DNA of 64,000 nucleotides from Lineus longissimus. Its lineage: Eukaryota; Nemertea; Pilidiophora; Heteronemertea; Lineidae. Positions 6,439 through 61,261 of the stretch are shown here, one piece after another. The DNA is taken from contig NC_088314.1 of NCBI RefSeq assembly GCF_910592395.1, positions 3,472,001-3,536,000 on the forward strand, read 5' to 3'. How positions within the stretch are numbered: the first letter of the stretch is position 1; every line of letters starts with the position of its first letter. The notes under the pieces were generated by a model. The model saw only the letters and a list, made by a program, of their open reading frames with translations, was not told the origin of the DNA and did no database searches. The position numbers and the translations under genes were made by a program.

Positions 6439-7971
6439 ATGCAGTTCTCGGGTTTAGTGATAATCTGTGTTGTGCCTTTCAATTCTGGTAAAGGCTCTGG
6501 GAAAAGAAAACAGGACATCACAGTGGCTGTGTTCCAACCTGCTTATACTACAAATGAAATCAAAAAGGAAATATACCTCAGATATAATTTCACCAGGTCT
6601 CCAGTTGAGTGCTCTGTTCTCTCCCTGCCGGAAGAAGGTGTTTTTTATTTCGTCTACAGAGGAAATGTTTGCAATTTTCACAGAGATACCCCAGCCGCAA
6701 TCTGTGAGATTGGACTGACGAGGCTGCCCGGTGTAAAATACATGAGAAAGAAAGTAAGTACGTGTTTGTAGTGATCAGGAAGTTGAACAATGGGATAGGC
6801 GTGCATAGGCGTTTCGGGGGCTTTGCGAAAACTCCCTATTGGTGATGTTGCCCCTGAATGATGTCGAGTGAGATGCATATTTGAGCGAATCAAATAACCA
6901 GGTAATCTTTCATATCGATAACCCTATTTTGATCATAAGTTTGCAGGCGAACCTTCTTGGAGTTTCACAAGTGAATTCTCAATGAAAGATATGAACTTTT
7001 TAAGCGTGTACGGAGGAGTATATTATCATTACTATATGAAAAGGATGATCATAGAATACCCGTTAAAGGGCGGCTGGAGATTTCAAGCATTCGAAAAGGA
7101 TGAAGCAAGCAAAAGTTTTATTCTCAGAAATGAGCCACCCGCCCTGAGTGATATGTTGGATAGCATTAGGGGTGGCCTCGTCGAACACGGACTGATAATT
7201 TGGCAAAGAAATAAAGCCAAGTGGAGGATGAACTTATATAATATAGAAACGGGACAGTATACAGGGCGAATTGTATGGATTGATGCTTATAGAGACACTG
7301 GTGACAACTGCTTACAATATCAACCCATTGCTTTATTCTTTGTAGGGAAGTCGGCCATCGTCCGTTGCCCCATTACGAAGACATCATTCAGGTATTTCTT
7401 CTTCGACCAGTATAAAGAAGAGCTTCAGAGGGGTATGAGGAATATCGATCTCGGAGAAGGGATGCTTTTGCGCGAGGTTGGAGATATGCATCACCCATTG
7501 TGTGCCCGCGATGGAATATTTGCCATGGCGTACCAATCAACGAAGACCGAGATCAGTGTAGACGTCATTCGAGTAGGGGTGAAAGACGGTGACACCTCGC
7601 TAACAACAAATTTTAAGCTTAACCTTGATATTTTGGGAAACATGTACGGAACTGACGGCCTATGGCGAATTTACGTCATAAAGAACACTGTGTTATTGAT
7701 ATTTAATCAGTGTACTCCGACTAAGATTTTCGTGTACAATGTGGTTGAGAGAGGTACGGGGATGGATACTGTCATTGAAGCCATTCCATATCCCGGCAAC
7801 CCGATCGTGACTCCGCTAGCTTTCAAGTATAGGCGGTTTTTTTTTGACAACGATGGAAACTACTATGATGTCATGATAGAGTCTATGACACAACCAAGAC
7901 GCATTAGCACTGAAGAGATGCTGAAAGTGACGTCTGTTAAAATGTTCAACATATCGGAATTGGAGTTTTGA
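6439..7971 (+). CDS. Unrecognised putative secreted protein, ~447 aa
   Basis: Two exons, 6439-6757 and 6947-7971. The second exon must be entered with two bases (GC|GAA), so the GTACGT donor at 6758 is used instead of the GTAAGT four bases upstream, which would give an early stop; the same kind of GTACGT donor ends exon 1 of the preceding gene. The start at 6439 gives a hydrophobic N terminus (MQFSGLVIICVVPF) consistent with a signal peptide; an in-frame ATG at 6403 is an alternative. The long second exon is dense in aromatic and beta-prone residues, with scattered cysteines (SPVECSV, GNVCNFH, DNCLQY, VRCPITK, LCARDG, NQCTPT). I recognise no family; the texture would suit a beta-propeller or beta-sandwich ectodomain, but this is speculation. 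That it is a real gene is likely from the 341-codon exon and the coherent junction. Confidence 0.6.
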
Positions 7972-21859: not shown

Positions 21860-23559
21860 TCATCTGCCTTTAGCAAGACGTAAAATCAAGTCTATTAAGT
21901 CTTTCCTCTTTTTTGACACGTATCCTGGCGTTACAAACTCATCCAGTGGAGATTTGAATGATTCCAGATATTTCATACAGAGACACTCAGTTACAGACAC
22001 TACGTATATCCCACAGTCATAGCCTGAAATAAGGATATGAAAATGTTTTGAGAATTTGTGACAATACAGAAATATTGATTATTTTGAAACGAATGCACAG
22101 GGTTGATTTAGAATCAATAAAGACATTGCTGATATTCACTTTAGAACCAGATTATGATGTTACTCATATCAGGCGGTCCTCAGGATTGAAGACTAAGCTT
22201 TGAAAATTGGTTACATTCTCTGGTTTTACTTCATTCTAGCATGCTAATTATGTTCACACACGAACACTTGTGACAGATGCAGAGATTAACAAAAAGTTTC
22301 ACCCCTCTCCCACATGGCAAATTTGGAAATGAGGTAATTTTAAACTAGCAACTCTGCTGCCCTCACTCCAAACTACAAAACCCCCAAGACCAAAAACAAC
22401 TTGTCTGCAATCGAGCACAAGCACTCTTTGATACTCACAGTTGTTCTGTTGAGGAGTTAGAGCCTCCTGATACTCCACTTCACCATATGCTGAAATAGAT
22501 GAACAATTATACTAAAAGCATGCAAATAAGAACAAGGTTGAAGGAGAGGAGATTCGTCATCGAGTCATCTCAAATTGCTTCTAGCTGATTTTAAGCAATT
22601 TTATTCAATTTTGCAAATTTAAGAGCAACTGGCAAGATTTTTCACTGCAAGGATAGACATGATAGAATGAAGGTTTTGACAGAGAAGTCCAAATCTTGAT
22701 CATCAATCAGGTCTATACCATGATTATATCGGAAATAGAAAATGGTCTCAATCAATATTTCGTTTGGAGGTCCTTGGAGTTTCAATTGCACTGTCTGTAG
22801 CCTACTTACCCCGTAGATAAGGATAAATCTTTTTGGCAATACTTCTAGCAGCAGCTTCGTTGTAACCATGATTAGAATCATAATGTGAAATGATCCCATC
22901 TTTCCGGGAGAATACTAGAAGACTCCAATGGGAACCTCCTGCCTGGCTTGCATCGGTACTGTCATTAACTGCAAGGAAGACTAGCTTCTTTGTGTGTAGT
23001 TCAAGTTTGATAAATTGCGTGACATCAGGGCTGATGAAGCGAACATGGTGGCACCTTTCTTTGAAGCGGTCATTTTCAAAATATCTGAAATTGAGAAAGA
23101 GAAGGCACAAGTTGAGCGAAGACAGTGCCAGTGGCAGTCATGGCAGTGGTGGTGGATTGCTATCCACATGGACGATGTCTGTCTGACCAAGGCCAGGGTC
23201 CATAAATTGGTACAGCACTACTCTTGACTGAACCGCATTGTCACCAATTATCCTTTCAAAATGGATATGATGGCAGTGATGCTTTGACGAATCAACTGGA
23301 AGGCCAACAGGAAAGGGTAGGACTGATTCTACGGAAAGCCGCGAGATGGCGCTTTACTTGACACTTTCGCTTTGTCGGTCAATTTCAAAGGACTGAAAGA
23401 AGAAATTAAGGCCGATTCAGACCATGTAACTTACTCAAACGAAAACCCTATAAGTTTGTCATTCAGCCAGTGCGGTCCTTCCAGCAACGAAACGTCTGAC
23501 TTTCTCAAAAGCGAGTCATGATAACTGAGAACGACCGCTTTTTCGTCGCTTTCGGCCAT
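21860..23559 (-). CDS. SENP8: SENP8-like NEDD8 protease, copy A (internally deleted)
   Basis: Four exons on the minus strand: 23435-23559, 22810-23084, 22439-22489, 21860-22023; 204 aa. SENP8/NEDP1 is the Ulp1-family cysteine protease that matures NEDD8 and removes it from non-cullin substrates. Conserved marks include WLNDKLIGFSFEYFEN, FISPDVTQFIK, the catalytic His in GGSHWSLLV, Asp in HYDSN, and Cys in YDCGIYVV. All three catalytic residues and the frame survive. Compared with copy B, 39 bases of exon 2 are missing in frame, removing 13 residues (GSHVELELFLQPL) corresponding to the AEIAMFLEPL region of the human enzyme, a structural helix near the substrate face. Activity is therefore doubtful, though transcription may persist since the upstream sequence is shared with copy B. 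Confidence 0.88.
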
Positions 23560-25127: not shown

Positions 25128-26050
25128 GGTGTATTCCTGTTTCGCCTATTCCTGTTTCGCCTAATTCCTGTTTCGCCTAATTCCTGTTTCGCCTATTCCT
25201 GTTTCGCCTAATTCCTGTTTCGCCTATTCCTGTTTCGCCTAATTCCTGTTTAGCCTATTCCTGTTTCGCCTATTCAAATGTATTGCTAACCTCCCCACAG
25301 ACGTAGGAATATGAACCGTCCCTTACTGACCGACCAAACCCGAGGAGAGCTACATATGTACGCATTGACGAACGCATGTTACGCCTCAAAGAACAATACG
25401 TCAATGGAGAGAGGGACATAATGAGTTACGTTGATGCCATCAGTTACCTTGTCTGACATAATATCATGATATGTATTTTCCACCTTGTTTGACTTTATAT
25501 GTGCTGTACCTACATGTATATTATGACATGGGTTTTACAGCTGATTTTGATCAAATAATTATGAGAATGTACAATATTATGTATTTTTATCAAAAACTCA
25601 TGAATTCAGTTTTCATAAAACAAACGACTGCTTTACTCTACTTAATCTATTAGTTTTTACTGTGTGTCAGTATGGTCCTATGGTCCTATGGTCAAATAGG
25701 CATGGTTTGTTAACAAAGTTGATGCATTTGATTAGTCAAATTGTCATCACATCGTTAACATCATCCAATTGTCCCCTCACATTTTCCCCATAAAATGGAC
25801 ATGCATCCCTAAGGTTCTCCGTGGGAGAGTCGATTTATTGTAGGGGTACTGGAAAGTAGGCGAAGCAGGAATAGGCGAAACAGGAAATAGGCCAAACAGG
25901 AAATAGGCCAAACAGGAAATAGGCGAAAAAGGAATAGGCGGAACAGGAATAGGCGGAACAGGAATAGGCGAATCAGGAATAGGCGAAACAGGAATTTTGT
26001 GGGCGAAACAGGAATAGGCGAAACAGGAATAGGCGAAACAGGCATAAACC
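25128..26050. mobile_element. Non-autonomous hAT-like element with tandem-array termini
   Basis: 923 bp bounded by an 8-bp target-site duplication CTTTGGAT (25120-25127 and 26051-26058). The termini are inverted: GGTGTATTCCTGTTTCGCC at the left and the complement of GGTTTATGCCTGTTTCGCC at the right, 17 of 19 matching. Each end continues into a tandem array of 15-16-base ATTCCTGTTTCGCCTA units, about nine copies at 25133-25273 and about twelve inverted copies at 25855-26043. The ~580-base core has no transposase frame. The duplicate promoter at ~27236 has the uninterrupted site CACTTTGGATATCAG, a paralogous empty site. An 8-bp duplication points to hAT-type transposition; the superfamily is inferred from that length alone. 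Confidence 0.88.
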
Positions 26051-30300: not shown

Positions 30301-33300
30301 TGTTGAAAATTTTAGATGCAAAAATGTAAAAAATCACATTGTCGCGGATGAGCCTTCTAACCCCAGCGACAATGGTGGGACAGATAATACCCTCTTATCA
30401 TTTAGTCTTTCTTTATTCTCGAGGAACTGGAATATTCAATATATACAGCATGAATGACAAGATATATACACATCAAATACAATCCACCAAGTCAAACAAT
30501 AGTTGGGCAGTTCAGCTTTAAAGATTCACTGACCTACACTACTAATATCTGGCTTTACTTTGTACTATAACATCCCTGGAGCTCCACACCACACCGATAC
30601 GAAAATAAACTACCTGTGCACTACACATTTGACATACTCTTCTCTACAACCGCACACACAACTACACACACAGGGCTCTCTACAGTCCAATTATCAAAGA
30701 CTTACACTACACCATGTACACTGACGTTCACTTCCAGACACGCCGAATCGGTAGATGTCGTCCTGGGTACCCCTAAAAGGTACCAAGAACGATCCTGGGT
30801 AACTTTTAGGACACTAAAAGTAACCCAGTTTGAAATTCGCGCACTTTTGGAACCTGCCGACGAGGTTCTTGAAAACGGTACTTTAGCGTTTTGCAGTGCA
30901 CGAATTCAGCTCAGTTCATCAAGAAGGATGATCTGATGATCTGTTGAAATCGTATTTTTTTGCACATAAACGGAGTGAAATGGATTTAATACGGCAATAT
31001 GATGATGATGGTGATGATGATGATGATGATGGTGATGAAATAGCCATCTAAATCATCGGCAGAAACTCGCATTTTGACCACGTGTGTTTTGACAGGTGTC
31101 AAAAATTCCAATGAATTCGTGCACTGCAAAACGCTAAAGTAACGTTTTCAAGAACCTCGTCGGCAGGTTTCAAAAGTGCGCGAATTTCAAACTGGGTAAC
31201 TTTTAGTGTCCTAAAAGGTACCCAGGATCGTCCTGGGTAACTTAGGGGTACCCAGGACGACATCTACCCATCAGTGTTTCTGCCAGAAATAAATTCAAGT
31301 GAATTGGCCAAAACAGTCCTCCTCAAAATATTCTTACATTTCGATATTTGTACAATATTTTCTCCATAAATTGTCTTTATATTTATATGTTTGTAGCTGA
31401 TTATATCGTTCGATTCACATTTTGAAAAAGACATTTGAATCGAAGTCAAGAGAATTAGTTTTTGGCGCCATGATGACGTCACCAATGGCGGATTTGCACT
31501 GGGGATCGAGTCGATTCCCTTAGAATGTGTAGTGCCGCTGCTCTTCTGTTGATACTAAACAAACAAACAAACAAAAAGATAACGTTTGAACCCTTCTGTT
31601 TATCATTCACATGACGAAATTTTACCATGTCTTTCAATTACAGAGTCATAGAGAGTAAGAATGAGAACTTTCCAGTTGGAACCCTCGTACTTAACTCACA
31701 AGGATGGAGAACTCATTTCGTCAGCGACGGAACCTTCGCGAGCATCGTACTGGACTTCGGAGACCTGTCACCATCACATGCCCTCGGTGCATTGGGAATG
31801 CCAGGGTAAGCTGTCCCTCAAAGAGTATTTAGTTCCCTATTGTAAGCCAAAGCCATCATTTTGGTCTATAATAAACCACATAACAATTCGGAGGAAAAGC
31901 TAAAAAAATTAATTATCATCAGCAAATATCTCATCGCATACACGGTAAGTGTGCTTGCCTCCGGATCCCTTCGTATTACACACCAGCAAATTTATGGAAC
32001 GACGTCTCACTAAAATTGCAAGCTGATATATATCTACTGGTCACGTGTATTATTCTTCAATTTTGTACCGCAGTTCTGATTCCGAAACGAGGTGTGTCTG
32101 TTTTGTGGTGTTTTTGGCCGCCTCAGGTGTGGCGGGTCGTTGCTTGAATACGATATCATCCTAAATCAGCCAGAGAAACATGGTGTGATCAATAATATGT
32201 AGACGTAAATCCGAGTGTAGGCCAAAATGGGGTTCAAGCCAAAATCACCCATCCTGCTTCGGACTTTGCAGGGCGTATCTCTTACAACTCAATATCATAT
32301 TTCTTATGGGGATGACCTAGGCTGTATGCGCTCGAAGGCTAACGCATTTCTGTCATTCTCGAAACGTGGAACCATGATAATTGAGAATAGAAAGTCAACG
32401 TTGGAATAAACATGTATAACATATTGTTCCTTGCTTAAAAACTACTGACCTCATTCTTTTCTTAGGCTGACAGCATATTGTTCTCTAATGGTTGTTTGCC
32501 AACTAAAAGTGGGAGAGGTTGTGGTCGTTAACGCAGCTGCAGGAGCTGTTGGTAATCTCATAGTTCAAATTGGCAAAGCTGTGGTAGGTATACTAGTAGT
32601 TTAAATCCATGCTAAATATCAGTCGCTTATGTTCCATCTGCTCATCAATGCATCATTGCTTCGATACATATAGGCAATGGCTTTATTGTTCAGTGTGCGC
32701 TCCACGTTTGGATTTTTTGTCACTTGAGAAGGGTAAAAACTCTAAATATTTCATGACGCTTTCTATTCTGAGATTTGTGTCCCGGTGTGGGATGATGCGA
32801 ATGTTAAAGAGGTGGAAGAGCAATCATAGTAACGCTTATTCTACCACTAATTCAGGTAGTCCGGCAAACTGGCAACGCCGTAAACATTGAACGAAACTTT
32901 TCCTATTCTTTTCAACTTCTCATCAAGGGCTGCAAAATGATAGCATACGCGGGGACCGATGAGAAATGTGCCTGGTTAAAGGAACTCGGAGCTGATTACG
33001 TCTACAACTACAAGAAAAAAAACCTTGCGGACACTTTGAAAGAGGCTGCTCCAGAGGGCGTGGACTGCTTCATTGATCACGTAAGTAGCAGGACTGTTTA
33101 CTACCTTGCGGCGAGGGGGAGGGGGAGGGGGGTGTTAAACACCGTAACTTCGCGGTGGGTTGTGACCCATTTACTATTTTTGACCAGGTTTCTCCATGTC
33201 TTATGATGGCAAAATGACCATCGCACTTCAAAAATCTGTACGGCTACTGATTGTGTTATACTTCCAGCAAATCTCGAGTCCATATGGCCATTCTATTTGT

Positions 33301-37107: not shown

Positions 37108-37850
37108 CTATGCTGCCAACACGGATGTCTCGTCGGGCCAGAACTTCCTGCGTGCCGGCTCTAGTAGTGGGCAGGTGCTTAGGATGTGCTCTGGGGTCTG
37201 TTCTCCGTTGCCGCACTCGCAGTTTGCCGTTTCTCGGATTCCTAGTCGCTTCAGGTGTTTGTTAAGCCTGCAGTGTCCTGTCCGAAGCCGGTATATAAAC
37301 ACCTGGCTCCTCCAGGTCTGCTTGTGGATGCTGTCCCGTGCTGTTCTGTAACCGCCAGTCTGCCTGCTCGAGCTCGCCTTGTAGCTGGCCTTTAGGAGGG
37401 TCTTGGACTCCGCATATGAGATCCTGTGTTGGAACTGCGGGAGCATTCTGCCTTACTTGGCTAGGTGATCAGCTTGCTCATTTCCATGCACTCCTATATG
37501 GACTGGGATCCACTGGACGACAATTCTTTTCGGCGTGAAGAGAAGGGGGTCTAGCCTGTCTAGTGAGCTGTCAGTCAGTGTCTCGGCTTTCCAGCTCTGG
37601 AGAGCAGGAGGGCTGACAGTGAGTCGGTCATTAGGAGGATGTTGTCTCCACACTTGGTACAGTTCCTGACAAGGTAGTCAGCAGCGGTGGTGAGTGCCTG
37701 TAGTTCAGCTCTGTAGTTGGAACAACATTTGCTGACAGAGACTGCGATGGAGTGCGATTCTCTGTCAGGGTGTTTGACAAAAACTCCGCTTCCTCCATTC
37801 CTGACAGCATTCTGTGAGGATCCGTCATAGTGGACATGGGTCCATGCGTG
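37108..37850 (-). mobile_element. LINE 3' fragment with RNase H domain, copy 2
   Basis: Minus-strand frame of a non-LTR retrotransposon tail. RNase H acidic residues are all visible: YDGSSQNA, RAELQALT, MTDSLSAL and NEQADHLAK, with VVQWIPVHIGVHGNE before the last. A TAA (37453-37455) interrupts the frame right after HLAK; it resumes with a tail ending CECGNGEQTPEHILSTCP, the Cys/His region typical of such elements (I-like, jockey-like or related clades). No reverse transcriptase remains in the window, so it is a 5'-truncated, dead copy. Confidence 0.85.
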
Positions 37851-38984: not shown

Positions 38985-40717
38985 TCATCTGCCTTTAGCA
39001 AGACGTAAAATCAAGTCTATTAAGTCTTTCCTCTTTTTTGACACGTATCCTGGCGTTACAAACTCATCCAGTGGAGATTTGAATGATTCCAGATATTTCA
39101 TACAGAGACACTCAGTTACAGACACTACGTATATCCCACAGTCATAGCCTGAAATAAGGATATGAAAATATTTTGAGTATTTTGTGACAATACAGAAATA
39201 TTGATTATTTTGAAACGAATGCACATGGTTGATTTAGAATCAATAAAGACATTGCTGATATTCACTTTAGAACCAGATTATGATGTTACTCATATCAGGC
39301 GGTCCTCAGGATTGAAGACTAAGCTTTGAAAATTGGTTACATTCTCTGGTTTTACTTCATTCTAGCATGCTAATTATGTGTACACACGAACACTTGTGAC
39401 AGATGCAGAGATTAACAAAAAGTTTCAACCCTCTCCCACATGGCAAATTTGGAAATGAGGTAATTTTAAACTAGCAACTCTGCTGCCCTCACTCCAAACT
39501 ACAAAACCCCCAAGACCAAAAACAACTTGTCTGCAATCGAGCACAAGCACTCTTTGATACTCACAGTTGTTCTGTTGAGGAGTTAGAGCCTCCTGATACT
39601 CCACTTCACCATATGCTGAAATAGATGAACAATTATACTAAAAGCATGCAAATAAGAACAAGGTTGAAGGAGAGGAGATTCGTCATCGAGTCATCTCAAA
39701 TTGCTTCTAGCTGATTTTAAGCAATTTTATTCAATTTGCAAATTTAAGAGCAACTGGCAAGATTGTTCACTGCAAGGATAGACATGATAGAATGAAGGTT
39801 TTGACAGAGAAGTCCCAATCTTGATCATCAATCAGGTCTATACCATGATTATATCGGAAATAGAAAATGGTCTCAATCAATATTTCGTTTGGAGGTCCTT
39901 GGAGTTTCAATTGCACTGTCTGTAGCCTACTTACCCCGTAGATAAGGATAAATCTTTTTGGCAATACTTCTAGCAGCAGCTTCGTTGTAACCATGATTAG
40001 AATCATAATGTGAAATGATCCCATCTTTCCGGGAGAATACTAGAAGACTCCAATGGGAACCTCCTGCCTGGCTTGCATCGGTACTGTCATTAACTGCAAG
40101 GAAGACTAGCTTCTTTGTGTGTAGTTCCAGTGGCTGTAAGAATAACTCTAGTTCCACATGTGAACCAAGTTTGATAAATTGCGTGACATCAGGGCTGATG
40201 AAGCGAACATGGTGGCACCTTTCTTTGAAGCGGTCATTTTCAAAATATCTGAAATTGAGAAAGAGAAGGCACAAGTTGAGCGAAACCAGTGCCAGTGGCA
40301 GTGGTGGTGGATTGCTATCCACATGATGGACGATGTCTGTCTGACCAAGGCCAGGGTCCATAAATTGGTACAGCACTACTCTTGACTGTACCGCATTGTC
40401 ACCAATTAGCCTGTCAAAATGGATATGATGGCAGTGATGCTTTGACGAATCAACTGGAAGGCCTAAAGGAAAGGGTAGGACTGATTCTATGGAAGGCCGC
40501 GAGATGGCGCTTTACTTGACACTTTCGCTTTGTAGGTCAATTTCAAAGGACTGAAAGAAGAAATTAAGGCCGATTCAGACCATGTAACTTACTCAAACAA
40601 AAACCCTATAAGTTTGTCATTCAGCCAGTGCGGTCCTTCCAGCAACGAAACGTCTGACTTTCTCAAAAGCGAGTCATGATAACTGAGAACGACCGCTTTT
40701 TCGTCGCTTTCGGCCAT
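38985..40717 (-). CDS. SENP8: SENP8 NEDD8-specific protease, copy B (full length)
   Basis: Exons on the minus strand: 40593-40717, 39935-40248, 39565-39615, 38985-39148; 217 aa against 212 in human. It is a Ulp1/C48-family cysteine protease processing the NEDD8 C terminus and deneddylating substrates. Start MAESDEKAVVLSYHDSLL matches the family N terminus. Catalytic residues are His107 (GGSHWSLL), Asp124 (HYDSN) and Cys167 (YDCGIYVV), with the oxyanion Gln in TPQQNNC. The region ELELFLQPLEL, aligned to human MFLEPLDL, is intact here but deleted in copy A. Other differences from copy A are slight, such as Leu instead of Ser in IGF(L/S)FE. It is probably the functional parent or the better-preserved copy. 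Confidence 0.95.
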
Positions 40718-53902: not shown

Positions 53903-56900
53903 TCACTCATCCAGTTGAGGCAACCAGAAACCCTGGGAAAGATAAGAATTAGGCTATCAGACACATGTCTATTCCTTGTAGTCATGAACGACAGTTACAT
54001 CCTGACAAAATGACCAGAACTAGTGGCCCTGAGGGAGGAGTTATGGCCATTCAGAACAACCTGTATCCAGGGCTAGCTTCACAACTACGATGACCAGGAC
54101 GAATTATGACTCTAGCATATTTCACTAGACCAGGACTGTCCTTCTAAGATTGAGAACACAAGAAGAACATAATGGTCTTTAGGTCACTTACCATGTTTAC
54201 ACAGGCACTAGCCAGCATCATGTATTTGGGATTAAACTGGACACACTGCACCGGACCAGAGTGCTCTGCATTGAGGATAGCAATACGAGACCCCGTCTCT
54301 GTATTCCAGCAATAGATCTTGCCATCAGTGGAGCCACTGAACACAAACTGAGAGTCGGGACTAAAGGATGCTTCAATTGGGATTCCCTTGTTGTTGGGTA
54401 CTCCCTGAAACGGAAAAACAAATGGTGAAGCAAAAGAATCCACTCCGAGTCAGTGTTTGACATGCTGCAAGTCAAATTGTCAGATGACTCAGTGTTTGTT
54501 TCACCAAGCAGCTCCATGAGACAAATGTCAAAAGAGATCTTGTTTTTCTGATGAATCAAATAAACTGCTAGGGAGAGACACAAATTGTAATCTCCCAGTC
54601 AATTCTGGCTTTTGCATGAAGATGGCTGTATCAATGGTTTTCCCGATTGAAGGAACTTGACAAACAATTTAAGTGTAACTAAGAACTTCAAATATTTCTC
54701 TCGATATCTAAAACATCTCAGGAACTCACCATGAATGTTTGTAACGGAGAGCCAACAAACGCATCAATCACCCGAATTGTCGACCCATTCGTTGATATGA
54801 GGATAAGTTTACCATCCGGACTGAACTTCAAGCCTGTCCAGTCACAATCTTTGTCTTGCTGCAGTTTGAATGTTGCAAAAGGACCCTGTAAGTAAGTAGT
54901 AAGATGGTGTCAAAATATGCTTACAGCATCCAGCCAAAGAGATTTGTAGTGGAGAACACTGCTGGCATACTAGCAAAATCAAGGTTACAGCGACTGCATT
55001 CATGTTTCTGTGGTTTATTTCCAGCAAAATGGATCTAGAATTTCCTCAAGCAGAGGGGCCATTAATCAAGTTCAAATTTGTGCAGGGGTTTGCTGTATTT
55101 CTTGGCTTCAGCACCAACATCAGTATTTACCTTGTCAAAGGACCGCACATCATATAACTTGACTGCTTCACTGTTGATCCCTGCAGCAAAGATGAGGCCT
55201 TCAGGATCAAAGGCTGCCACAGGTCGTCCTGTCAGATGCATCAAACCCTAAAGAGGAATCGCGAGCATTCAATTATAGCTAACAGACCTTGATACAAAGA
55301 AGATTATATTTGAAATACTACAATAGGCAAAAACACTGTTAACACCAGAACAGTGATTATTTAGCTTCTGACTTCATTTCCATGACCTTCGAGTCAACTG
55401 TGACCGATTCCTCCGTGTCCTCAATTTTGCAATGGTTTGCAATATGATCCCAGGTAAGTGATACAGTCGAGGTAAATGCGTCAAGACTGAAATTAGTTGG
55501 ACTTGAACTGACTCTTACAATCTCTACCAATGTTGGTGTTCATCATACTTGCATTCATATCATGACAGAAAGTAGCCACAGAAAGGTTGGATTCAGACGG
55601 TGGGGGGCGAGGGAGCAGCGGCATTCAATCATGCACAGTGAACACTCTATATTGTGTTTCTTGAGGGCGCATGCATTTTACTTCTAAAACATGTGAGGAA
55701 CACATTACATTTCACTAGCCTGACTCCCCAGGTCTCTAAGGAGTTGAGTTGAATTTGGCATTTTCAAGGTTTACAGTTCACAACTACTATGTACACATGT
55801 TAAGTAGATTCAGTCTGTAAAAACCCTATTTTTCGGCACAATGAGAATGACAACAGTGACCAAACTTTAGGCACAATTATTGCAGAATAGCTATGTATTG
55901 TGCATTGTGCAACACTCTAAAATAAACGTTTTGAAAACTTATTAGACTTTTTCTATTGAGAGACACAGAAAGGAAATTCTTACATGAAAAGCTTCTTACA
56001 ACATTGAGCTGAGCAACCCATTACCAAACAATCTCCCAAACCAACACGGCAAGGTTTAGTTTTACAGTCAACAATACGAATATTGTCAATCAATAAGGAG
56101 TTCAACTACTAATCAACAATTATAAGTTATCGCAAAGGAAAAGAAATAACTATTTCAGAATAAAATCAAATGCATCTTTACAGGAACAAAAATGAGAATT
56201 TTTAACTCAATTGCAACTGCAAAAAATAAAATATTTTTTATGGACTTATTTTGCTGATCTGCTTTTCAGGCTGATCATGATTTTGAATTTTGGGAATTCA
56301 CCATTGAATTTGATATTCTATTTAATTTCATCTTCAGCACTCGTCACAATAAGCTTATTTGTCCCCAAATTGAATGACACCAAATCTTTTTCAAACACAG
56401 ATAGCAAAAGGTTAGACCATGACAACGTGTCGCTATAGCGACAGTCGAAGCTCTGGTGCGGTACGGAGGCTGGACACGGAGAACAAGTCAGGATACATAT
56501 ACCTGATGCTTCTCTGCCCGAGTGTCCCATAACATCAACGTTTTATCCAAAGATCCGGACAGAATTTTATTGTCGATTGGGGAGGCACTTAAAGTCACTA
56601 CTCTGCAAGTATAATGAACACAAACTAAATAAAAATTGGCAACATAAGTGAACACCTAGATGCACATCAGTGCACTGGGTGAAATTAAAAGCCTACCTGA
56701 CAATTTGGTGACCGGAGATCCCATAATCTGATAGTTTTGTCCAAAGACCCCGACAAAAATGAATCATCCACAGGTGACATACATAATGAGACAACCCTGA
56801 AAAAATTTCACACAGAGGCATGAATCACATTCATCATAAGTTTATAAAATACCGGAGGTTTTAGAAATATTCTCAAAAATTGAAATGTGCAAGGCTTTTG

Positions 56901-58034
56901 TTTCTGAAGAACCATCATCATCATCTATCATGCTCTAATTTTTATTCAATATAACAGTATGCTGTTCATAGATTAAATCAACAAGAAGCCTAGCACTTCG
57001 TCAAAGAGCATCACTAAATTTAAACTTACTTTTTTGTGTGACCTTGGAAATACCTTATATATTTGTTGTCATGTAACGATAAATAACGAATTGTGTCTGA
57101 AATGATATGAAGAAAAGAAAACAATAATGTCAGTGTTACAACAATTATAGGCCTACTGTTGCAGTGGACAGCAAGTGTTCCTTATCACCATTTTCTCAGA
57201 TTTTGTTGGGATGGCATAGTAACAACAAGTCCAACAACATGATATTTGTATTACTATACTATCAGACAAACTCAACTTTGTGAAATCTTTGTCCGATAGT
57301 TTTAGCTTCAAGTTTGCTTCTCAAGTCCTTGACCTTGAGCAATGGGCTACTAGAATAACTGAAGCCTGGCTTATTTTCTGGATTTGTACCTGGCACTAAA
57401 AAGTAACCAAACTTACCATCAACTTTTGTTGAACTGTGAATAGCTGCATTTGGTGCGTGTGTAAACTGGATGAGGTCAACTCCGTATTTTTTACTGTTTA
57501 GGGTTCTTTTCGGCCTGTAACACAATTGTAAACAAATTAGACCTGGAATAGACTCAAGCTCACTTCGTAGCGACCTAGTCGATCGTCTTTAAGTTTTAAG
57601 ACTAGTCTTAGTACTAACTACTAACTAGTAGCGACCAATCCAAGGTTCCAATTAAGAAAATCGACAATCCAATGGCCAATGCAGCTACATTGACTTGTTG
57701 AGAGCTACACACTGCCTTCCATGACTTCAAGTAGGCTATCATCTGCGCATAGGCCTACTGCTAGACAACATTGATTTTAAAGATTAATGAGATTTCACTG
57801 AACCTAAATGCACTACAAAATGTACAGGCGAATGCACAAAGTAAAAATCCAGAATGTAAACACTGAAACTTACGTTCCGTTTTGACAGTCATAGATCACA
57901 ATAGAATCATCATCACTACTTGAGATTAAAGTTTCGCCATTTGGGTTAAAGTTCATGTAATTGATGCGATCATTGTTCTCTCTAAACACTTTAGCGACAC
58001 GAAAACTCCGAAGGACATGATCCGTCAACTTCAT
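53903..58034 (-). CDS. WDR82: WD repeat-containing protein 82
   Basis: 313 aa, the same length as human WDR82. Exons on the minus strand: 57874-58034, 57417-57514, 57030-57096, 56697-56796, 55131-55247, 54730-54885, 54192-54404, 53903-53932. WDR82 is the seven-bladed beta-propeller subunit that tethers SET1/COMPASS H3K4 methyltransferase to Ser5-phosphorylated RNA polymerase II and also joins the PNUTS-PP1 complex, in the nucleus. Matches include [105 protein letters not shown] and the short last exon GFWLPQLDE. The start at 58034 is the family start; an upstream in-frame ATG is unlikely. The exon at 56697-56796 has a diverged twin at 56503-56602 (separate entry). Head-to-head with GLYCTK. 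Confidence 0.97.
56503..56602 (-). other. Alternative, mutually exclusive version of WDR82 exon 4
   Basis: 100 nt flanked by a CAG acceptor (56605-56603) and a GTATAT donor, entering in phase 2 and leaving in phase 0 exactly like exon 56697-56796, which is also 100 nt. Its 33-codon product ([20 protein letters not shown] followed by [13 protein letters not shown]) matches the standard exon at 19 of 33 positions. Using both exons would shift the frame; skipping both also would. The intron between them is only 94 bases. Confidence 0.88.
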
Positions 58035-59002: not shown

Positions 59003-61261
59003 ATGCCTCCACTAATGCTGCCAAGGATGTTTGCTGCACTACGGAAACCATTTCTTCTTTCGCCTTGCATTCTACACAGAAGTTATGCTGCAACAGTGTG
59101 GCCAACATCAACTACTGGAATAGCTTCCCTCTTATCCAAAAGTATGCCAGATGATAGCTTGAAGAAACATTGCCAAATGGTATTTGAAAGTGGTGTCAAG
59201 TCAGTCCTACCTAAACAAATGGTGTTTAACAATTTAAAGATAGAGGATGGTGTGATGACTGTTCAGGATCGTGAATATTCGCTGGAGCGTAACGTCTATG
59301 TTGTGGCCTTTGGTAAAGCTGTTATCGGAATGTGTCGCGCTGTGGATGATATGTTGAGGGAGCACATTGTCCAAGGAGTTGCTAGTGTCCCCTTGGGTAT
59401 CCAGGAGACGTTCGGTCAGTGTGGAAAACAGTAAGTTCTTTGGGTTCAGGCTTGTACGGTGCAAGTTTTAGGGGTTCAATTGAATCAAATTCTCTATTAC
59501 TTACCTGTGGTATTAATATTGGAGTATAGACCATCTGCAGTATCTTCAGTCAGAGCTTGCATGGCAACACCTTTGTTTCGCCTCACTTGATTGATCGCAA
59601 GAATTTTGCGCTTACTTTGTTTACAGACCACTTCTTAAATTGTTGTTTGAAACTTTTCAGAGAGTTTCTACTAGAGCCAGGGAGTAAGATTCAAGTTTTC
59701 GAAGGTGCTCAGAACAATCTCCCCGATGCCAACTCCCATGCCACTGCCATCAAGATCCACAAATTAGCCCAATCACTTACAGAGAATGACTTGTTGCTTG
59801 TACTTATTTCTGGTGAGTTGATACTTTCTGTGGTAGGATTGATTCTCGTGACTCTTGTTGGCCAAGACCTAAGTTTTAGGAGCCTTATCGCCCAGAGGTT
59901 AACACTGAGACTGACAATGATAAAACTTGTATATGGTTGAGAATGCAAAAATCTAATTGGGGGATTCCCTCATTTTCCAGGTGGAGGGTCGGCTCTGCTG
60001 CCTGCCCCTATTCCTCCGATAAAACTTGAAGAGAAGGCCAGCGTTACCAAGCTATTGGCTAAGAATGGTGCTAATATACATGAACTCAACACATTGAGGA
60101 AACATCTAAGTCTGCTGAAGGGAGGTGGCCTGGCAAATGTGGCCTATCCAGCCAATGTAAGTAAAAAAAGTCAGTTATCCTTACTGACTGAGTCCATTTG
60201 ATATTCCTTTTGAAATTAAGTTGAGATGGCATTCCAAAGTTAGCAACGGAGATCAAAGGTGTGATACCAGTATATTGTATGTCTCATCATCCCCATATCT
60301 GTTACAGGTGGTGTCCCTGATTCTCTCCGATGTCATTGGCAACCCCCTGGACCTTATTGCCAGTGCCCCGACTGTACCAGACTCGTCAACTGCTCACCAG
60401 TGCCTTGATTTGCTGCAGACCATGAAACTGGAAGACTCCATCCCAGCCTCGATAAAGAAAGTATTGAGACAACAAGATGAGGCCGATCGTGACAACAGTT
60501 CTCTGCCACATTTAAAGAAAGGTGCTCAGAAAGTGGACTTTAGTCATGTACAAAATGTAATTGTTGGCAGCAATTCTATAGCTGTAAAAGCAGCGAAGAA
60601 GACTGCTGAAGGTTTAGGGTATACAGCCACAGTTTTGACAACTACTTTAGATGGCGAGGCGCAGAAGGTCGGAGTCATGTTGGCACGGTTGGCCAAGTTT
60701 GTCTGTTTGTGCCATAAGAATAAAGCTGCGCCTAATTCTGCGGGTAAAGAGCTGACAAAGAGTGAAATAAGTCTGTTTTCCTCTGGATTTGAGAAAACTT
60801 GTTCGAATGAGTTGGCAAGATTGGCAGCCGAGGCCGTCATGCACGATACTCCCATCTGTATCATATGTGCAGGGGAGACCACTGTGCAGGTACGCGGGAA
60901 GGGGGTGGGTGGCCGCAACCAAGAAATGGCCCTGGCAATGGGAATAGAAATGAATGAGATTTTCCCGCTGTCCAATTTGAGTGAGAGTTATAGTGTCGAA
61001 TTCCTTAGTGCCGGCACTGATGGTAAGGATGGGCCTTGTGACGCAGCGGGAGCTTTTGCTGATCCAAGCCTGTACCGGCGGGCGGAGCAAGAGGGGTTAA
61101 ACACCTACAAATATCTGAACGAAAATGATTCATATAACTTTTTCAAGGTGCTATCTAAGGGAGCTGACCACTATGTAACGGGTCACACTGGTACTAATGT
61201 AATGGATGTACAGATTTTGCTCATTAAGCCTGTGCAAACTCAAACTAATACGAAACATTGA
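59003..61261 (+). CDS. GLYCTK: Glycerate kinase
   Basis: 569 aa, somewhat longer than the 523-residue human enzyme. Exons 59003-59430, 59661-59812, 59981-60156, 60308-61261. It phosphorylates D-glycerate (to 2-phosphoglycerate in animals) in serine and fructose catabolism. The N terminus (MLPRMFAALRKPFLLSP..HRSYA) is basic and without acid, suggesting mitochondrial import. Family marks: VVAFGKAVIGM, EGAQNNLPDANS, the nucleotide-loop SGGGSALLPAPIPP, LNTLRKHLSLLKGGGLA, LSDVIGNPLDLIASAPTVPD, and a C-terminal MOFRL domain with GETTVQVRGKGVGGRNQEMA, FLSAGTDGKDGPCDAAGAF and YFV-type end DHYVTGHTGTNVMD. The start could be the ATG at 59015 or 59027. Its neighbour in head-to-head orientation is WDR82, as in human 3p21. 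Confidence 0.96.

Follow-up and report, generated by a model that had tools for sequence, protein, structure and literature searches.

Why does the WDR82 gene of Lineus longissimus carry two versions of a single WD-repeat exon next to each other, and what could decide which of them enters the mature transcript? The 64,000-nt stretch of genomic DNA that was analysed (the window) contains a complete WDR82 coding frame on its minus strand (53903-58034), for which gene model and translation give nine coding exons when both twins are counted, with GT-AG borders at every intron. The coding part of exon 1 runs from the ATG at 58034 to 57874 and is followed by exon 2 (57417-57514), exon 3 (57030-57096), the canonical WD-repeat exon 4a (56697-56796), its twin 4b (56503-56602), exon 5 (55131-55247), exon 6 (54730-54885), exon 7 (54192-54404) and a final coding exon that includes the stop codon (53903-53932). 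Exon 3 is the upstream and exon 5 the downstream partner of both 4a and 4b, and the product has 313 residues with either twin. The intron separating the twins (56603-56696) is only 94 nt long and is the shortest in the gene, the seven others ranging from 233 to 1255 nt.

The name WDR82 rests on similarity and is presumptive. The 313 residues contain several WD40 matches and make up a full-length WD40 propeller related to Swd2 proteins. Among the 60 of 69 matches to solved structures that were listed, the best single stretch over the whole length is with C824.04 (9scd chain D; E 3e-46, residues 7-310), which we take to be fission yeast Swd2.2, while the generic WD-40 protein 2ymu outscores it over several partial stretches in the same set. 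A search for WDR82 relatives gave 2 pattern matches among viruses and 5 among prokaryotes, none of which was confirmed. On the plus strand, a glycerate kinase gene (59003-61261) lies head to head with WDR82 (start at 58034), the start regions of the two genes being about 970 bases apart; its frame at 60188-61261 carries the MOFRL and DUF4147 domains of Pfam. In the human genome, GLYCTK and WDR82 are neighbours as well.

The first-pass annotation had described two 100-nt exons of equal phase separated by a 94-nt intron, with exon 3 ending at 57030 and exon 5 beginning at 55247, and the gene model reproduces each of these positions exactly and shows GT-AG borders. Exon 3 supplies the first two bases of a codon that either twin completes with its first base, and both twins end on a codon boundary. 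The reported 19 identities among the 33 encoded residues are likewise exact, rising to 20 of 34 when the split codon is counted. This similarity is far beyond chance: a tblastn search of the 64-kb window with either peptide retrieves the other twin at E = 6e-10, and the next match is another repeat of WDR82 itself (E = 0.6 with 4a and 0.03 with 4b as query). No third copy of comparable score was found in the window with either twin peptide. Nor could the pair easily be two alleles placed side by side by an assembly or haplotype artefact, an idea for which no support was found and which has a practically negligible probability, as 38 of the 100 bases differ (62 identical) and the flanks are unlike, far beyond what allelic difference would produce.

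The two exons are adjacent and internal, equal in length, in the same phase, similar in sequence and bordered by GT-AG introns, and the reading frame allows only one of them at a time. Joining 4a to 4b leads to a stop at codon 154, inside 4b, and skipping both leads to a stop at codon 111; a shift of frame in either case had been proposed from the length of the exons. Stop codons well ahead of the last exon junction generally expose a transcript to decay, so decay is expected for both of these products. The anatomy of the gene and the constraint on the coding sequence give good support to a mutually exclusive pair, in which one exon or the other would be used. The stop at codon 154, far upstream of the last junction, would also suit a poison exon, in which 4b would mostly be included together with 4a to lower WDR82 levels and no 4b protein would be made. 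Such a function needs no WD repeat, whereas 4b keeps its frame, its equal length and 19 of 33 residues, it scores above the WD40 cut-off, and the intron that would have to be removed between the twins is the shortest of the gene. A poison exon is accordingly an improbable reading of 4b.

The pattern of substitution between the twins points to constraint on the encoded peptide. The 99 coding bases hold 37 differences, 13 of them at first, 6 at second and 18 at third codon positions, and the NG86 method returns a dN of 0.35 and a dS of 1.98, the latter near saturation. The resulting dN/dS of about 0.18, a purifying pattern, describes the 4a-4b pair and not 4b alone; LWL85 and YN00 gave no value for the ratio. 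When the same number and kind of changes were scattered randomly over 4a in 200,000 neutral simulations, mean identity fell to 11.7 of 33 residues and the frame stayed open in 20.6 percent of cases. At least 19 identities were retained in 49 of the 200,000 simulations, and in only 18 was the frame open as well. Read together with exons 3 and 5, both peptides exceed the Pfam WD40 cut-off of 27 bits (4a, 40.6 bits; 4b, 33.3 bits). The introns flanking the two exons, on the other hand, resemble each other no more than shuffled sequences do (shuffles scored as well in 615 of 1000 cases upstream and 835 of 1000 downstream), and homology between them was rejected on these chance-level scores. Only the exon has thus kept its sequence, which looks like the pattern expected of an old duplication under selection.

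A duplicate that was once used and is now silenced, perhaps by the RNA helix described below, could also have left a recognisable exon behind. Its lower score shows 4b to be further from the WD40 model than 4a, as drift would predict, yet its frame is open, its GT and AG are intact, and neutral change did as well in no more than the 18 simulations just mentioned, so that a dying copy appears unlikely, if somewhat less so than a poison exon.

What would the second exon change in the protein? By the order of strands in WD40 repeats, exon 4 presumably encodes strands a to c, with the a-b loop and the b-c turn between them and the c-d loop at the end. The two isoforms differ at 14 positions, all within this one repeat. 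Seven of these are in loops, namely V/I, D/N and S/K in the a-b loop and S/A, P/E, N/K and C/H in the c-d loop (4a/4b), and seven are in strands (S/T, C/S, M/A, F/I, I/L, R/M and L/T), while the b-c turn SLDK is the same in both. The suggestion that structural residues are kept and surface residues vary was consequently half right: it holds for the two loops, and the seven strand differences do not fit it. The a-b and c-d loops of a WD40 repeat share one face of the propeller, and by altering both of them 4b may tune the binding of partners there; SET1/COMPASS and the Pol II CTD are the candidate contacts put forward in the first-pass annotation. In budding yeast Swd2, the substitution F250A weakens COMPASS and has been placed at the tip of blade 6 (PMC7195483); this contact is not in the repeat encoded by exon 4 of WDR82.

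How one exon might be chosen over the other is not apparent from the strength of the splice sites. Weaker 5' or 3' sites, considered as a possible signature of the twins, were not found: U1 pairing of the twin donors amounts to -10.7 and -7.2 kcal/mol against -5.1 to -8.7 kcal/mol for the other WDR82 donors, and the pyrimidine share is 0.65 at both twin acceptors against 0.60-0.85 at the others. A scan for splicing-factor motifs gave scattered matches without a pattern. In the 94-nt intron, candidates for a yUnAy branch point occur at +12, +17, +30, +48, +52, +67 and +82, and an AG ends at +72. A branch point less than 50 nt from the upstream donor would create steric hindrance, an optional feature that is reported for 9% of human clusters (PMC5740500). 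A further AG (TTTAG) sits at 56625-56626, close to the helix described below but not within it and 22 nt ahead of the 4b acceptor; splicing there would add 22 nt to 4b and put it out of frame.

A candidate for the missing control lies in RNA structure. Ten pairs of segments from the region of the twin exons were compared with shuffled sequences, and the 94-nt intron with the intron after 4b stood out, at -59.9 kcal/mol against -47.7 kcal/mol for shuffles, none of 60 being as low; for each of the remaining nine pairs, at least 7 of 60 shuffles were equally or more stable. This low energy is due to an uninterrupted 18-bp helix with 17 Watson-Crick pairs and one G-U pair, whose first arm (56604-56621, minus strand) spans the 3' splice site of exon 4b as far as the A of the AG, and whose second or docking arm (55536-55553, minus strand) is the complementary stretch in the next intron. 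The helix is present in the minimum free energy structure of a 1651-nt segment, and whether 1651 or 2411 nt are folded, its pair probabilities are 0.98-1.00.

The helix could nevertheless have arisen by chance or from repeats, as an inverted match that plays no part in splicing, the choice being made by proteins and by competition between splice sites, an explanation that would leave the exon part of the argument intact. The pairing was picked from ten region pairs, and the repeat clusters of the window yield many longer helices. On the minus strand, 40 helices that span less than 1400 nt contain 16 Watson-Crick pairs or more, and the 18-bp helix is the only one of them outside repeat clusters, the other 39 lying in clusters near 2.2, 25-26 and 30.7-31.3 kb; 45 such helices exist on the plus strand, and the 30 of these that were listed belong to the clusters at 25-26 and 30.7-31.3 kb. 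Neither arm has a further copy in the window within 3 mismatches, which argues against an origin in repeats, and the helix ends within one base of the acceptor of a twin exon. Among 1000 random 1255-nt stretches of the window outside the gene, none reached 18 bp with the 94-nt intron and the best had a run of 13 Watson-Crick pairs, while in another control, whose draws could include WDR82 itself, a helix of this length (G-U free) occurred in 3 of 150 stretches and an equally low energy in 1 of 100. Together, 26 dinucleotide-shuffled windows contained one helix with at least 17 Watson-Crick pairs. Of the 15 other WDR82 splice sites, the 13 examined have best helices of 8-12 Watson-Crick pairs, and the best partner of the docking stretch on the whole strand is the 4b acceptor (-32.4 kcal/mol), the next sites following at -25.3 kcal/mol. 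A fortuitous helix is on balance doubtful, but it is an alternative to be taken seriously.

Several other structural features were set aside. General occlusion of the 4b acceptor was rejected because its mean pairing (0.90) hardly exceeds that of the exon 5 acceptor (0.88), with 0.74 for exon 4a; since the exon 5 acceptor is nearly as paired overall, the 4b acceptor is distinguished just by the specific long helix. The next-best partner of the docking stretch within the gene, 56635-56674 inside the 94-nt intron (-22.1 kcal/mol), is no better than several unrelated sites in the window. A 14-bp match (12 Watson-Crick pairs) links 55525-55538, beside the docking arm, with the sequence that follows exon 5; it was discounted, a match of the same size being found at the 4a donor. 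Folded locally, 56480-56830 shows no gain in stability over its shuffles (-87.5 against -86.7, SD 5.0), and nowhere in the window did an Rfam family attain its gathering score.

Other parts of the window contain repeats and gene fragments of their own. Units similar to CCTGTTTCGCCTATT are arranged in tandem at 25130-26042, in both orientations and facing each other, and at 30750-31268 an inverted repeat, long and almost perfect, has unbroken stretches of 19 to 55 bp and could form a large hairpin. Two minus-strand frames (22802-23137 and 39927-40511) share a nearly identical peptide stretch, which suggests a recent duplicate or a retrocopy; the former matches an Ulp1-type protease (Peptidase_C48 in Pfam). 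A fragment at 37108-37452 resembles the end of a retrotransposon reverse transcriptase, zf-RVT scoring below Pfam's cut-off, and an open frame of 349 codons at 6922-7971 has no Pfam match at E 0.001.

Taken together, the exon pair and the helix are best explained by an old tandem exon duplication that is now probably spliced in a mutually exclusive manner, giving two WDR82 proteins with a bias to 4a imposed by the RNA helix, a reading to which we assign a probability of roughly 0.7. Once formed in the pre-mRNA, the helix would hide the polypyrimidine tract of 4b and the A of its AG and would loop out the exon, so that 4b would be skipped. In the linear pre-mRNA, 1449 nt separate the 4a donor from the exon 5 acceptor; with the helix in place, the effective distance would shrink to about 360 nt (75 + 288 nt lying outside it), near the size of other WDR82 introns. 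With 4b masked and looped out and exon 5 brought closer to 4a, exon 4a would be the default. If the helix were opened, or formed too late, the 4b acceptor would be freed and 4b could be used. Since transcription reaches the docking arm some 1.05 kb past the 4b acceptor, elongation speed could matter for this choice. Joint use of the two exons would be curbed by the frame, and perhaps by the shortness of the 94-nt intron. Permanent masking of the 4b acceptor by such a helix would also be expected of the silenced, drifting copy considered above. For a regulated pair, the predicted helix offers a direct handle on how the switch might work.

Swd2/WDR82 is common to the SET1/COMPASS and PP1 termination modules, which have opposite effects on transcription. 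The most attractive functional reading, at present a guess by analogy, is that the two exons divide these duties. In a bolder form, one isoform would serve SET1/COMPASS and the other PNUTS-PP1 or ZC3H4 termination, as an intragenic version of the Swd2.1/Swd2.2 split, and the choice would be kinetic, slow Pol II leading to 4b and fast Pol II allowing the helix to form and leading to 4a. PNUTS-PP1, a complex that holds WDR82, is reported to slow Pol II (PMC9718767, PMC12278311), and WDR82 would therefore sense and adjust its own isoform ratio. This extended scheme is speculative and, in our estimate, improbable. If the two exons do divide these duties, the animal could switch the two roles of WDR82 within one gene, cell by cell.

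Among the matches listed, titles and the beginnings of abstracts on WDR82 or WD40 together with mutually exclusive, duplicated or alternatively spliced exons do not describe this exon pair, in a literature set with subscription papers mostly outside it. Papers with both WDR82 and "mutually exclusive exons" in their text are, by title, on other subjects, and the human atlas of Hatje et al. 2017 is not among them. That atlas treats mutually exclusive exons as neighbouring internal exons of identical length, in the same frame and with similar sequence (PMC5740500). WDR82 4a and 4b share with the human exons a length not divisible by three, such that joint use shifts the frame, but they are at this stage a pair predicted from genomic sequence.

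Mutually exclusive exons with long-range RNA pairing are already known as a kind; what is new here is the 18-bp complement of the 4b 3' splice site in the next intron. Docker-selector structures have been described for Dscam exon 6, 14-3-3zeta, Mhc and MRP1 (Ivanov and Pervouchine 2018, PMC6071210). The predicted 18-bp helix resembles them in that an intron element, downstream of the cluster and shared by it, would pair over a long range with the cluster and could loop one exon out. It differs in that WDR82 has one strong selector, on the 4b acceptor, whereas a competing selector for 4a was not found, the docking stretch pairing with the intron before 4a at best at -15.9 kcal/mol. The WDR82 helix therefore looks like one-sided masking.

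At the level of the protein, the pair can be likened to species that keep two versions of the Swd2 propeller. Fission yeast has a dedicated paralogue for each duty, Swd2.1 and Swd2.2 (PMC2614481), and in Arabidopsis the work is reported to be divided between S2LB and APRF1 (PMC7616277). In those organisms the two versions arose when the gene was duplicated, and Set1C/COMPASS and 3'-end processing are reported to be shared out between them (PMC2614481, PMC7616277), whereas in L. longissimus two propellers in one species would stem from duplication of a single exon.
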